The translations under genes were made by a program, and so were the position numbers. From Limnothrix sp. CACIAM 69d (GTDB taxonomy: Bacteria > Cyanobacteriota > Cyanobacteriia > CACIAM-69d), in contig MKGP02000064.1 in the NCBI GenBank assembly GCA_001913845.2, positions 1 to 64,000 of the forward strand: 64,000 nucleotides of DNA, given 5' to 3'. Under the pieces are notes generated by a model. That model was not told the DNA's origin. It did no database searches and saw nothing but the letters and a program-made list of their open reading frames with translations. Numbering within the stretch: position 1 is the stretch's first letter; every line of letters starts with the position of its first letter. Shown here in pieces: positions 7,468 through 12,593 of this stretch.

Positions 7468-7803
7468 ATGGCATTGGAATCGATCGAACGGGCGGAAACG
7501 GTGGAGCGAGCGACCCTGCTGGCGGGGTTCCATGCCCTCGGCGATCCGATTCGGCTGGGGGCGATCGAACATTTGCGGCAGGGCGAATTGTGCGTGTGCG
7601 ACCTCTGCGAGCTGCTGGGGGTCAGCCAATCAAAGCTGTCGTTTCACCTGAAAGTGCTTCGGGAAGCGGGCTTGATTGAAGTGCGCCAGGACGGCCGCTG
7701 GAACTATTACCGGCTGAATCCGGCGGGCTTTGAGCGCTTAGAGCAATATTTAACGAGTTTTGCGGGGTTGGTGATTACGGGCGATCGCGCCTCCTGTGCC
7801 TAG
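7468..7803 (+). CDS. arsR: ArsR-family arsenic-responsive repressor
   Basis: A 111-residue ArsR/SmtB winged-helix repressor. Residues 42-47 read CVCDLC, the three-cysteine As(III)/Sb(III) sensor motif of the E. coli ArsR type, in the DNA-recognition region. The HTH follows (GVSQSKLSFHLKVLREAGLI). It begins 56 bases after the Uma2 gene and is followed by acr3 and arsC on the same strand, so it should repress the arsenic efflux genes until arsenite binds. The candidate operator lies not in front of arsR but between arsR and acr3 (7919-7953), as if acr3-arsC has a separate regulated promoter. Confidence 0.93.
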   Translation: MALESIERAETVERATLLAGFHALGDPIRLGAIEHLRQGELCVCDLCELLGVSQSKLSFHLKVLREAGLIEVRQDGRWNYYRLNPAGFERLEQYLTSFAGLVITGDRASCA

Positions 7804-7868
7804 CGATTCCGCCGCGCCTACCAACTAGCCGTGCCCGCCAACAAGGCTTGCCCCTTCGGTGGGACAGA

Positions 7869-7888
7869 CAAGGGGTTTAAACCCCTTG
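7869..7888. repeat. 20-bp perfect palindrome, dispersed family copy 1
   Basis: CAAGGGGTTTAAACCCCTTG is a perfect palindrome between arsR and acr3, identical to the copy at 17502. Related CTTAAG-centred copies occur across the window. Here it lies 65 bases after arsR and could end the arsR transcript, although no U-run follows. Confidence 0.85.
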
Positions 7889-7918
7889 CCCCTTGATCGG
7901 AGAGCTGGGGATTGTCAA

Positions 7919-7953
7919 ATCAATTTTTTTTGAATTCATCAATTTTTTTTGAA
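7919..7953 (+). promoter_or_regulatory. Direct-repeat candidate ArsR operator
   Basis: ATCAATTTTTTTTGAA occurs twice without change, at 7919-7934 and 7938-7953 (period 19 bp). Each copy is itself a short inverted repeat, TCAA-N6-TTGA, the style of ArsR/SmtB sites. It is placed 65 bases before the acr3 start, where a promoter would be expected. ArsR binding is inference. Confidence 0.6.
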
Positions 7954-8017
7954 ATATTCCTGGCACAATGGAGGCGATCGGGGGAAATCGATGCGCATTG
8001 CCCGATCGCGAGGTGCT

Positions 8018-9157
8018 ATGACCATCAATCCCAGTGCCAAGGCCCCGAAGGTGGGCGGCCAACTCAGTTTTTTTGAACGCTATCTGACCGTTTGGGTGCT
8101 GGTTTGCATCGGGGTCGGCATTCTGTTGGGGCGGTTGTTTCCCGATGTGGCGATCGCCCTGGATGCCTGGACGGTGCATCAGGTGTCAATCCCGATCGCG
8201 GTCTGCCTGTTTTTCATGATGTATCCCATCATGGTGAAAATCGATTTCACCCAAGCCAAACGGGCCATGCGATCGCCCAAGCCGGTATTGCTGACTTTGG
8301 TGGTGAATTGGGGGATCAAGCCCTTCACAATGATTGCGATCGCCCAGCTATTTCTAGGCCATTGGTTCCGCCCACTGATCCAAGGTTCTGAGCTATTACG
8401 CGGTGAATCCATTGCTCTCGCAGATTCCTACATTGCCGGGGCGATTCTGTTAGGCATTGCGCCCTGCACGGCCATGGTCTTGATGTGGGGCTACCTTTGC
8501 TATGGCAATCAGGGCCACACCCTGGTGATGGTGGCGGTGAATTCGCTGACCATGCTGCTGCTCTATGCGCCTTTGGGGCGGTGGCTTTTGGCGGCCAATG
8601 CTTTGGCGGTTCCTTGGGCTACGATCGCCCTATCGGTGTTGATCTATGTGGGCTTGCCCTTGGCCGCAGGCATCTATACGCGCCACTGGATTTTTAGATA
8701 CAAGGGAGCCGATTGGTTTGAGCAAAAATTTTTGCACTACCTCAGCCCGATCGCCACTTCAGCATTGTTATTAACCCTGATTTTGCTCTTTGCCTTTAAG
8801 GGAGAGCTAATCGTTAACAATCCGCTGCATATTTTCCTAATTGCCGTGCCGTTACTGATTCAAACCCTGGCGATTTTTGGGATCACCTATGCCTTAGCGA
8901 AACCCTTGAAATTGGTCTATGAAGATGCGGCTCCGGCGGCTTTAATTGGCGCGAGCAATCATTTTGAAGTGGCGATCGCCACGGCGGTGATGTTGTTTGG
9001 GTTGAATTCGGGGGCAGCCCTGGCGACGGTGGTGGGCGTGTTGATCGAAGTGCCGGTGATGTTGTTGCTGGTGGAATGCTGTCGGCGCACGGCCCACTGG
9101 TTCCCCCGATCGCCCGAAAAGGCCACCTTGCTCGATCCCCGTTGTGCGCGTCTTTAA
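8018..9157 (+). CDS. acr3: Arsenite efflux permease, ACR3 family
   Basis: A membrane protein of 379 residues from the ATG at 8018; frame-consistent ATGs at 7949 and 7991 would give unusually long N-termini. The sequence has ten hydrophobic segments. The N-terminal start [21 protein letters not shown] and the GIAPCTAMV motif with the conserved cysteine are ACR3 hallmarks. It exports arsenite from the cytoplasm, driven by the proton gradient. It follows arsR and the candidate operator and precedes arsC. In Synechocystis the equivalent genes lie with arsH, which is absent here. Confidence 0.93.
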
Positions 9158-9216
9158 GTTGTGTGTGTCTTTGAGTTGTTGAGATTGATGCGTTTTGAGA
9201 TTGGGAGGGCAATGGA

Positions 9217-9633
9217 ATGAAATCGGTGATGTTTGTTTGTCGGCGCAATTCTTGTCGATCGCAGATGGCGGAAGGCTGGGCGAAAACCCTGGGGGCGGGC
9301 AAAATTCGGGTGGTGAGTTCCGGTCTCGAAGCCAGCCGGGTGCATCCCACGGCGATCGCGGTGATGGCGGAAGCGGGAATTGAGATCAGCGACCAAACCT
9401 CCAACGCCCTGGCTGAATTTGCCCCCGAAGACTTCGACGGCGTGATTTCCCTCTGTGGCTGTGGGGTGAATTTGCCGGAAGCCTGGGTGCTGCGGGAACT
9501 ATTTGAGGATTGGCAACTGGACGATCCCGATGGCCAACCGATCGAGGTGTTTCGGCGGGTGCGCGACGAAATTCGCGATCGCGTCACGGCCTTGATCGAT
9601 CAGATCAGCCAAATTAGCCAAGTCAGTCCTTAA
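9217..9633 (+). CDS. arsC: Arsenate reductase, low-molecular-weight phosphatase type
   Basis: A 138-residue enzyme reducing arsenate to arsenite, which Acr3 then exports. The phosphate-binding loop CRRNSCR (Cys8 to Arg14, CX5R) and the redox pair Cys80/Cys82 in SLCGCGVNLP are at the same positions as in Synechocystis ArsC, a glutathione/glutaredoxin-dependent enzyme in this fold. The C-terminal part (LFEDWQLDDPDGQ, EVFRRVRDEI) also matches that type. It starts 59 bases after acr3, the last gene of the ars set. Confidence 0.93.
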   Translation: MKSVMFVCRRNSCRSQMAEGWAKTLGAGKIRVVSSGLEASRVHPTAIAVMAEAGIEISDQTSNALAEFAPEDFDGVISLCGCGVNLPEAWVLRELFEDWQLDDPDGQPIEVFRRVRDEIRDRVTALIDQISQISQVSP

Positions 9634-10682
9634 TTCAGTGGCACCAAGGCTTCAACCGCCGCCACCAAGCGCGATCGCACCGTGGGTAAGTTGGCGGCCG
9701 GATCCGTGAGCGCAATGACCGATCGGGCCGTTCCCAGCAGCATGGCGTTGAAGCCGCCCGCATCACCAGAGCCGCGAAAATCCGTGCGCAGCGCCACGAT
9801 CGGCAACTGACGCGCAAACGCATAGCCACATTCCCAACAGGTTCCCGAGTCCGCATCGGCCCCGTCCAACACGGCAATCACGGCATTAGCCTGATCCAGC
9901 CCCGATCGACAGCATTCAAAAATCGCCTGCGGATCACTGAGTCCCGCACATTCCACCTGGGGCAAAAAGACGGGATAGCCCAAGGTTTGCAGTTCCTCGG
10001 CGAGGGTTTGGTTCAGCCAGCGCTCTCCTAAGGAAAACAGTGGCCCAGCCCAATAAAGCCGCAAGGGGCGATCGGCCCTTGGGGCGGCCAAATGGGCGCG
10101 GCCGGTTTGCAAAATGGCGTGAAACGGCTCCATGAGGGTTGGTGGCATGGGCCCCAGGGCGGTCACCACCTGTTCAGCCCAGTCGAAATAGGCCTGGCGA
10201 CGGGCGATCGACCAGCGCTCCGGCGGCGACTGATCCACATCCCGCAAGTTGCAAATTTTGTCCGCCAGTTTCACCAGCTTGGCCCGATCGCTCAAGGTGG
10301 GTGCATGGTCAATTTGCAACTGCTTTCGCTCGGCCTGGGGCAATCGCTTATCGTCCGTCACCTCTTGCACCAGGGCGGCAATGTCGGGGCCGAAGTGGGC
10401 GACCAATTCGGCGGCGGTGGTGTCTGTGTCCTCGATCGTGTCATGGAGCAGGGCTGCCGCCAACACTTGAGGGTCTGTGATTTGGGCCTCATGCACCAGC
10501 ACCCGCAACAGGGCGATCGGGTGGTTGATATAGGGCGATCGCTCTCGATCCTTGCGCCGTTGGTGGCGATGCTTTGCGGCCGCAAAGGCCAAGGCCCGCG
10601 CTAACAAATCCAGTTGGGGCCAACCGTTGGGGAAATCGATCGGGCGATGGCTTTCCGATTCAGTGATCGGCTGAGGATCCAT
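9630..10682 (-). CDS. Fusion of MESH1/SpoT-like HD hydrolase and nucleoside 2-deoxyribosyltransferase-like domain
   Basis: A 350-residue two-domain protein. Residues about 25-195 match metazoan MESH1, a small (p)ppGpp/NADPH hydrolase. The HD metal and catalytic set falls at the same spacing: His54 in YINHP, His80-Asp81 in LLHDTIEDT, Glu84/Asp85, Asp141 and Asn145 in DKICNLRD. Residues about 207-350 resemble the NDT superfamily (LYWAGPLFSLGERWLNQ, VLDGADADSGTCWECGYAFA), with Glu284 as likely nucleophile. The usual MESH1 has no second domain. The 3-prime end overlaps the arsC stop by a few bases on the opposite strand. The substrate of either domain here is inferred from family only; linked hydrolysis and salvage of a nucleotide signal is a hypothesis. 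Confidence 0.88.
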   Translation of the reverse strand: MDPQPITESESHRPIDFPNGWPQLDLLARALAFAAAKHRHQRRKDRERSPYINHPIALLRVLVHEAQITDPQVLAAALLHDTIEDTDTTAAELVAHFGPDIAALVQEVTDDKRLPQAERKQLQIDHAPTLSDRAKLVKLADKICNLRDVDQSPPERWSIARRQAYFDWAEQVVTALGPMPPTLMEPFHAILQTGRAHLAAPRADRPLRLYWAGPLFSLGERWLNQTLAEELQTLGYPVFLPQVECAGLSDPQAIFECCRSGLDQANAVIAVLDGADADSGTCWECGYAFARQLPIVALRTDFRGSGDAGGFNAMLLGTARSVIALTDPAANLPTVRSRLVAAVEALVPLN

Positions 10683-12149: not shown

Positions 12150-12593
12150 GTGAACGCCGCCGAACGTGCCCACTCGATCGCCCTAGCCAGCCAAATCGCG
12201 GCTGCGGTGAATTTGTTTCGCATCGCTTTTCCCGATGTGCGCGTGGATCTGAAACCTTGGCTCAATGATGCAGAAACCCGCGCCACCGTTGATCCAGACT
12301 CGATCGACATTGGGTTTCACTTTCCGGGCTACAGCCGCGCCTGTGCCTGTCGCAGTTTGCTGGTGCAAGTGCGCTTTTTTGCGGATCCGGTGGAAGACAC
12401 CCAACGGGCGATCGGTGTGGAAGTGGCGGGCTACGACCATCGAGGGCAACAGTGGCGCTTCTCCACGATCGAGGCCTGGCAGTTCGAGGGCGACAGCCAA
12501 CCCCGCGCCGAACCGGCCGATCGAATTAAGCATTACTGCCGCGAGGTGATGGAACTGTTCAACGGGCGATCGAGCAGCGATTCGGCTGCCTAA
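12150..12593 (+). CDS. Conserved hypothetical protein
   Basis: A soluble protein of 147 residues starting with GTG; an AGGAG Shine-Dalgarno at 12141-12145 fixes that start. I do not recognise a named domain. It contains a Cys pair (RACACRS, about residues 62-68), an alpha-helical N-terminus and an acidic centre, with no signal peptide or membrane segment. It stands alone between the divergent yciH and a convergent gene. It looks like a lineage-conserved cyanobacterial protein, but I cannot assign a role. Confidence 0.7.
   Translation: MNAAERAHSIALASQIAAAVNLFRIAFPDVRVDLKPWLNDAETRATVDPDSIDIGFHFPGYSRACACRSLLVQVRFFADPVEDTQRAIGVEVAGYDHRGQQWRFSTIEAWQFEGDSQPRAEPADRIKHYCREVMELFNGRSSSDSAA

Follow-up and report, generated by a model that had tools for sequence, protein, structure and literature searches.

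The window analysed here, a stretch of 64,000 nucleotides, carries on its reverse strand a gene at positions 9630–10682 (ATG start at 10682, stop codon at 9630–9632) that encodes a protein of 350 amino acids in a single continuous reading frame with no internal stops. Two Pfam families match this protein above their curated cut-offs: PF13328 (HD_4) at residues 30–161 (E = 1.8e-20) and PF05014 (Nuc_deoxyrib_tr) at residues 209–304 (E = 2.7e-17; 63.4 bits against a cut-off of 28.8). No NCBIfam model describes the protein as a whole, the top match being the hydrolase region of RelA/SpoT, which scores well under its cut-off. The AlphaFold model of the full-length protein consists of two confident domains (mean pLDDT 89.3). 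The open reading frame is a genuine two-domain protein, in which a MESH1-type domain is joined to a domain of the nucleoside 2-deoxyribosyltransferase (NDT) family. At its 3' end the gene overlaps by four bases, tail to tail, with arsC (9217–9633) on the opposite strand; arsC is part of an arsenic-resistance cluster at 7468–9633 that comprises arsR, acr3 (TIGR00832) and the glutaredoxin-type arsC (TIGR02689). Upstream, after a gap of 24 bp, lies a gene for a HAD-family (beta-phosphoglucomutase-like) phosphatase (PF13419; 10707–11468, reverse strand), and beyond it are found a gene for a translation-initiation-factor-like SUI1 protein of 122 amino acids (PF01253; 11633–12001) and an open reading frame without a Pfam family (12150–12593).

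MESH1-type enzymes remove phosphates at the 3' or 2' position of cofactors and of nucleotides that signal stress, and their physiological substrate is disputed, with (p)ppGpp, (p)ppApp, NADPH and, lately, CoA having been proposed. A bacterial MESH1-like enzyme cleaves pppGpp, ppGpp, pppApp and NADPH (PMC9765508), and CoA is reported as a MESH1-type substrate in a further paper (PMC13221220). In the window protein, the MESH1 or small alarmone hydrolase domain spans residues 22–199 (positions 10086–10619, reverse strand), as delimited by PF13328, phmmer, invariant columns, the model and a structural match. Residues 27–181 align to human MESH1 without a gap (phmmer, 188 bits, E = 2.3e-54), and identity to the human protein is 53–55% over about 175 residues. 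The preliminary description of this DNA had read a complete HD set at MESH1 spacing (H54, H80-D81 and D141, with intervals of 26 and 61 residues). All of these metal ligands were found, together with the catalytic pair E84/D85, which corresponds to the Glu-Asp of the HDTxED motif (E65 and D66 in human MESH1), and the MESH1 site is therefore intact. Ten MESH1 proteins from cyanobacteria and proteobacteria all share E84, D85, the metal ligands, W157, R161 and Y165.

The predicted structure, with pLDDT above 90 through most of this domain, has the all-helical MESH1 fold. The top PDB match for residues 20–196 is human MESH1 (9chy; Z = 29.1, 1.7 Å over 177 residues), while other small alarmone hydrolases come next in the ranking at Z 20–23 and 21–28% identity, indicating that the domain is MESH1-type in the narrow sense. 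Pfam detects no RelA_SpoT synthetase domain in the fusion protein. The metal ligands, the catalytic Glu/Asp and the gap-free core are common to the fusion, the human and Drosophila MESH1 enzymes (HDDC3; 3nr1, 5vxa, 9chy, 3nqw) and bacterial Mesh1. However, known MESH1 members are listed as single-domain hydrolases (PMC3153485), whereas here an NDT domain follows at the C-terminus, which places the protein outside the definition of small alarmone hydrolases used in that work (hydrolases without a further domain). A 2011 survey puts cyanobacterial members in Mesh1-L, whereas the domain of the fusion lies near the Mesh1 of animals and Burkholderia.

The NDT (PF05014) domain occupies residues 206–344 (positions 9651–10067, reverse strand), as judged from Pfam, profile alignment, conservation and the model. 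Its top PDB match (residues 204–347) is the NDT of Desulfotalea psychrophila (Z = 18.5, 2.0 Å over 132 residues), which is also the best match when the domain is modelled alone (pLDDT 89.2; Z = 17.3). A profile of 21 relatives retrieved 7m5h (E = 3e-21), 7o62 (9e-21) and CtNDT (1.5e-9) from the PDB; identity is 29–30% to 7o62 and about 22% to CtNDT. The preliminary description had been prepared to abandon its reading if the C-terminal half belonged to an unrelated Rossmann family; this is ruled out by Pfam, profile alignment and structural matches, and both of its family assignments hold, with PF13328 and PF05014 above their cut-offs and with structural matches to MESH1 and NDT. The fold is common to D. 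psychrophila NDT (7o62), the Chroococcidiopsis thermalis enzyme CtNDT (8pqp series) and the E. faecalis enzyme (7m5h), and the fusion also shares with these solved NDTs the nucleophilic Glu, the Tyr, the Asp/Asn that bind the 5'-OH, the base-protonating Asp, the N-x-M motif and a TDFR-like motif. It differs from them in being joined to a hydrolase and in carrying Cys258 in place of Asp62 of CtNDT (Asp72 of LlNDT).

The nucleophile of CtNDT is E88, which is oriented by Y7; the 5'-OH is bound by D82 and N118, D111 is the proposed base protonator, and D62 lies near the 2'- and 3'-OH of the sugar (PMC10913048). By alignment these residues map to Glu284, Tyr210, Asp278, Asn312, Asp307 and Cys258, respectively. 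The catalytic Tyr and the nucleophilic Glu of the family are thus both present, the codon of Glu284, the predicted covalent nucleophile from alignments and conservation, lying at 9831–9833 (reverse strand). The key residues of the domain, identified from Pfam, alignments and conservation in 109 NDT relatives, are Tyr210, Pro241, Asp278, Glu284, Asp307, Asn312 and Met314. Among these relatives, Tyr210, Pro241, Asp278, Gly280, Asp301, Asn312 and Met314 are invariant, and Glu284 is present in 107 of the 109.

DNPH1 and MilB cleave nucleoside 5'-monophosphates. Their structures match the NDT domain at Z 15–17, within about one Z unit of the NDTs themselves, so that fold alone is indecisive between nucleoside and nucleotide substrates. 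The 5' pocket is more informative: nucleoside enzymes bind the 5'-OH through Asp/Asn, whereas 5'-monophosphate N-hydrolases have an uncharged pocket for the 5'-phosphate (PMC10913048, PMC12884076). The fusion keeps the NDT-type pocket, Asp278 and Asn312 (invariant or nearly so in the 109 relatives), a pair that speaks for transferase-like substrates, nucleosides whose 5'-OH is free, and against 5'-phosphate hydrolases. The uncharged pocket of 5'-monophosphate N-glycosidases of the DNPH1/MilB type is absent.

The preliminary description had also seen an NDT active site in the C-terminal half. This stands for Glu284, but the canonical Tyr-Asp-Glu set is incomplete, as the active-site Asp (D72 in LlNDT, D62 in CtNDT; Asn in some NDTs) is missing in the fusion. 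Sequence alignments place Cys258 (codon at 9909–9911, reverse strand) at this position, 26 residues before Glu284, the same distance as that between D62 and E88 in CtNDT. In the 109 relatives the position is occupied by Cys (53), Asn (20), His (20), Asp (11) or Leu (5). A residue other than Asp is hence a trait of the whole NDT subfamily and not of the fusion, which reveals a large uncharacterised subfamily in which the conserved active-site Asp has given way to Cys, Asn or His. A clash between D62 of CtNDT and the 2'-OH has been blamed for its poor use of ribonucleosides (PMC10913048), and loss of the Asp could therefore relax the discrimination against ribonucleosides, a prediction made from sequence. 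By analogy, Tyr210 argues against such relaxed sugar specificity, since the residue is Phe in the archaeal N-ribosyltransferase of PMC7308715. With Cys258 in place of the conserved Asp, the domain may have changed or forfeited its NDT activity, although the D62N variant of CtNDT retains about 50% efficiency (PMC10913048). The subfamily offers a direct test of deoxyribose versus ribose specificity, a matter of relevance to the making of nucleoside drugs. In one genome of the sister genus g143 (G388), the standalone NDT relatives L051/L112 have the nucleophilic Glu replaced by Val and are probably inactive or regulatory.

Between the two domains lies a fast-evolving linker region (residues 182–205; positions 10068–10139, reverse strand), defined by dN/dS and by the secondary structure of the model, which overlaps the C-terminal helix of the MESH1 domain (181–199). 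Comparison of the window gene with its 96% identical homologue in genome G033 gave dN/dS values of 0.06 for the MESH1 domain, 0.09 for the NDT domain and 0.67 for the 24-residue linker region. More distant pairs give the same order, although less reliably, as their synonymous sites are near saturation. These low values indicate that both domains are maintained, each being kept by strong purifying selection, while the linker is free to evolve.

A search of cyanobacteria for PF05014 combined with HD domains, proposed in the preliminary description together with structure prediction, found the same architecture in four genomes of two genera, just as the prediction yielded two confident domains that match human MESH1 and D. 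psychrophila NDT. The fusion is present in all three genomes examined of the genus and in the one examined of its sister genus (homologues in G033, G386 and G133), with identities to the window protein of 96% and 70% within the genus and 56% in the sister genus. In the two genomes of a third genus of the family, the NDT domain is standalone, without the fusion. Beyond these four, overlapping samples of 386 genomes from the phylum and 390 from the class yielded no fusion. Of 188 NDT relatives confirmed in 85,000 species genomes, the 80 best included no fusion other than the two known records, and none was found on phages, plasmids or viral contigs. The carriers among the species genomes are Oscillatoriales cyanobacterium isolate PH2015_14S and Cyanobacteria bacterium MS008. 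Two candidates were rejected: a match on a Caballeronia plasmid (H1, residues 37–263) has a stop codon after the MESH1 domain, and a junction-spanning match in G394 (residues 168–337, with stops inside) comes from a standalone NDT gene whose upstream sequence resembles the fusion by chance.

The preliminary description had feared a frameshift artefact of a single genome. The recurrence of the fusion in four genomes and two genera, the intact frames and the purifying selection rule out an artefact of frameshift or assembly. The fusion is confirmed as real, selected and lineage-restricted, with two halves that both appear functional; Cys258 is a feature that looks unreported and opens the protein to testing. 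The four fusions form one clade in the MESH1 tree (93/80) and are united in a reduced NDT tree (88/77). Two independent fusions were considered, as an 82-row NDT tree places the long-branched G133 domain apart from the others, but the other two trees unite them. We therefore prefer a single origin before the two genera split as the simplest reading, without regarding it as proven or strongly supported. Outside cyanobacteria, the neighbours in the MESH1 tree are Burkholderia, Caballeronia, Methylocalor and viral-contig sequences.

No description of a MESH1-NDT fusion was found among open papers, subscription papers lying outside the reach of the search, and the pairing is new as far as the open literature shows. 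The general architecture, an NDT-like domain with a phosphohydrolase, is already known from DmtZ-DutZ of Z-DNA phages, in which an NDT-like domain is fused to a dUTPase-like domain (PMC12884076). As in the window protein, an NDT-family domain and a nucleotide phosphohydrolase are combined in one enzyme of the nucleotide pool. However, DmtZ is N-terminal and a 5'-monophosphate N-glycosidase, its partner is dUTPase-like rather than MESH1, and the reactions are sequential, with the phosphohydrolase product dAMP feeding the NDT-like domain (PMC12884076). Methanomicrobiales and relatives (L088–L137) also carry a C-terminal NDT domain of the same subfamily, here behind an N-terminal region resembling PF04463 (2-thiouracil desulfurase) and unrelated to MESH1; the third active-site position of these proteins is mostly Asn, His or Leu. 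All nine N-terminal regions scanned gave a PF04463 match, weak and under the curated cut-off (best E = 3e-4), and a desulfurase-like/NDT fusion is apparently widespread in this group. An in-frame fusion of MESH1 with a GlmS-like SIS isomerase region occurs, in turn, as a 573-residue protein of one cyanobacterial genome only (G398; L259:221-1939, reverse strand), with matches to PF13328 and two to SIS.

The order of HAD gene and fusion gene is kept in G033 and G133, hence in two genera (with a gap of 2 bp in G133), and the HAD gene is a probable operon partner of the fusion. In G386 the HAD orthologue is missing, and the fusion is preceded by a gene that resembles a cobalamin-biosynthesis gene on reading its sequence. 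A cyanobacteria-wide link of HAD to NDT or MESH1 was rejected, as most copies of this widespread HAD gene stand apart from both. The window genome encodes one long Rel, its only RelA/SpoT synthetase, and one PNP-family enzyme, and no small alarmone synthetase was found in it. The fusion is its only NDT and, besides the long Rel, its sole HD_4 protein of the alarmone-hydrolase type. Of the deoxynucleoside kinases, two families were sought in this genome, dNK and TK, and neither was found, leaving the classical salvage route for deoxynucleosides incomplete with respect to these kinases. In the class sample of 390 genomes, a MESH1-type gene occurs without an NDT of the subfamily in about 52, and the reverse holds for 18; separate genes for both co-occur in 2 genomes against 2.4 expected, which is not beyond chance.

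We consider it moderately likely that the fusion is a bifunctional nucleotide-recycling enzyme, in which alarmone or cofactor hydrolysis and nucleoside exchange or cleavage take place at separate sites. The residue-by-residue mapping of the CtNDT mechanism onto the NDT domain (PMC10913048) counts in favour of this reading, whereas Cys258, the chance-level co-occurrence of separate genes, the missing dNK and TK and the loss of HAD linkage in G386 count against it. From what is known of its family, the N-terminal domain would act as a Mn-dependent hydrolase that removes the 3'-pyrophosphate of (p)ppGpp or (p)ppApp and, more slowly, the 2'- or 3'-phosphate of NADPH or similar cofactors. For the C-terminal domain, the family likewise predicts a covalent (deoxy)ribosyl intermediate on Glu284, from which the sugar would be transferred to a second base or to water; Asp307 would donate a proton to the departing base, and Asn312 and Met314 would reach the site from the partner subunit of an obligate dimer. 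More tentatively, the fusion might tie the turnover of alarmones or cofactors to that of nucleosides through co-expression, with the HAD phosphatase joining the same operon in some members, and the NDT dimer might serve as a scaffold for the hydrolase. Rather than handing substrate directly from one to the other, the two sites probably operate in parallel. A natural fusion of MESH1 to a nucleoside enzyme provides an evolutionary hint on the disputed MESH1 substrate, and an accessible bacterial model in which to study it.

The chief rival to the bifunctional enzyme is inter-domain regulation or scaffolding by an NDT dimer, in which the NDT-like domain would mainly bind a nucleoside or base, or oligomerise, and thereby tune the MESH1 hydrolase while catalysing little itself. 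Cys258 at the place where the active-site Asp is expected, the lost nucleophile of L051/L112 and the obligate dimers of NDTs, which are a ready scaffold (PMC7308715), would all fit. However, the fusions keep Glu284, Tyr210, Asp307, Asn312 and Met314, and constraint on the NDT domain matches that on its MESH1 partner; we judge this explanation unlikely. Somewhat less probable again is that two unrelated housekeeping activities were joined by chance at a gene junction and retained neutrally. Such an accident agrees with the narrow distribution, with the co-occurrence of the standalone genes at chance level and with the joining of MESH1 to a GlmS-like SIS domain in another cyanobacterium, but not with a fusion that two genera have retained whole at identities as low as 56%, in which no fission was seen and constraint acts on both domains.

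The preliminary description had envisaged that one protein removes a phosphate and then acts on the nucleoside. The known MESH1 products (GDP/GTP, ADP/ATP, NADH and dephospho-CoA) still bear 5' phosphates and are thus not NDT substrates, given the 5'-OH pocket of Asp278 and Asn312; direct channelling with known MESH1 substrates is therefore unlikely, and the proposal fails as a direct one-step route. Nor is it favoured by the separate MESH1 and NDT genes, which co-occur no more than chance predicts. Chemistry would permit a one-step relay only for nucleoside 3'-phosphates, which some nucleases release with a free 5'-OH. The MESH1 domain would dephosphorylate these and the product nucleoside would pass straight to the NDT site, where Cys258 would admit ribonucleosides; we regard this as improbable, but if true it would give the MESH1 family a new activity, the scavenging of nucleic acids. 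A part in anti-phage defence (a role also floated in the preliminary description) or in a toxin-antitoxin system, for example as an antitoxin to toxins that make (p)ppApp or (p)ppGpp with an NDT domain directed at NAD or nucleotides, is very improbable: NDT and TIR domains share a fold (Z 14.5–16 to the SPARTA, SARM1 and TIR-1 structures) and MESH1-like enzymes of other bacteria counteract alarmone synthetases that are toxic (PMC9765508), but PADLOC gave no match for the fusion protein, for its homologue in G133 or for the neighbouring HAD protein, the neighbouring genes are for arsenic resistance and housekeeping with no defence genes adjoining, the long Rel as sole RelA/SpoT synthetase leaves no small toxic synthetase in the genome, and the 5'-OH pocket matches that of nucleoside enzymes.

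Standalone MESH1 genes show linkages of their own. In G395, from an unrelated family, a standalone MESH1 gene and a HAD orthologue are divergent and about 190 bp apart (L260:2464-3885), an independent HAD-MESH1 link. In G213, a MESH1 homologue (L053:6735-7273) matches as two pieces in different frames, which suggests that it is frameshifted, and a homologue of the window's open reading frame at 12150–12593 lies directly upstream of it.
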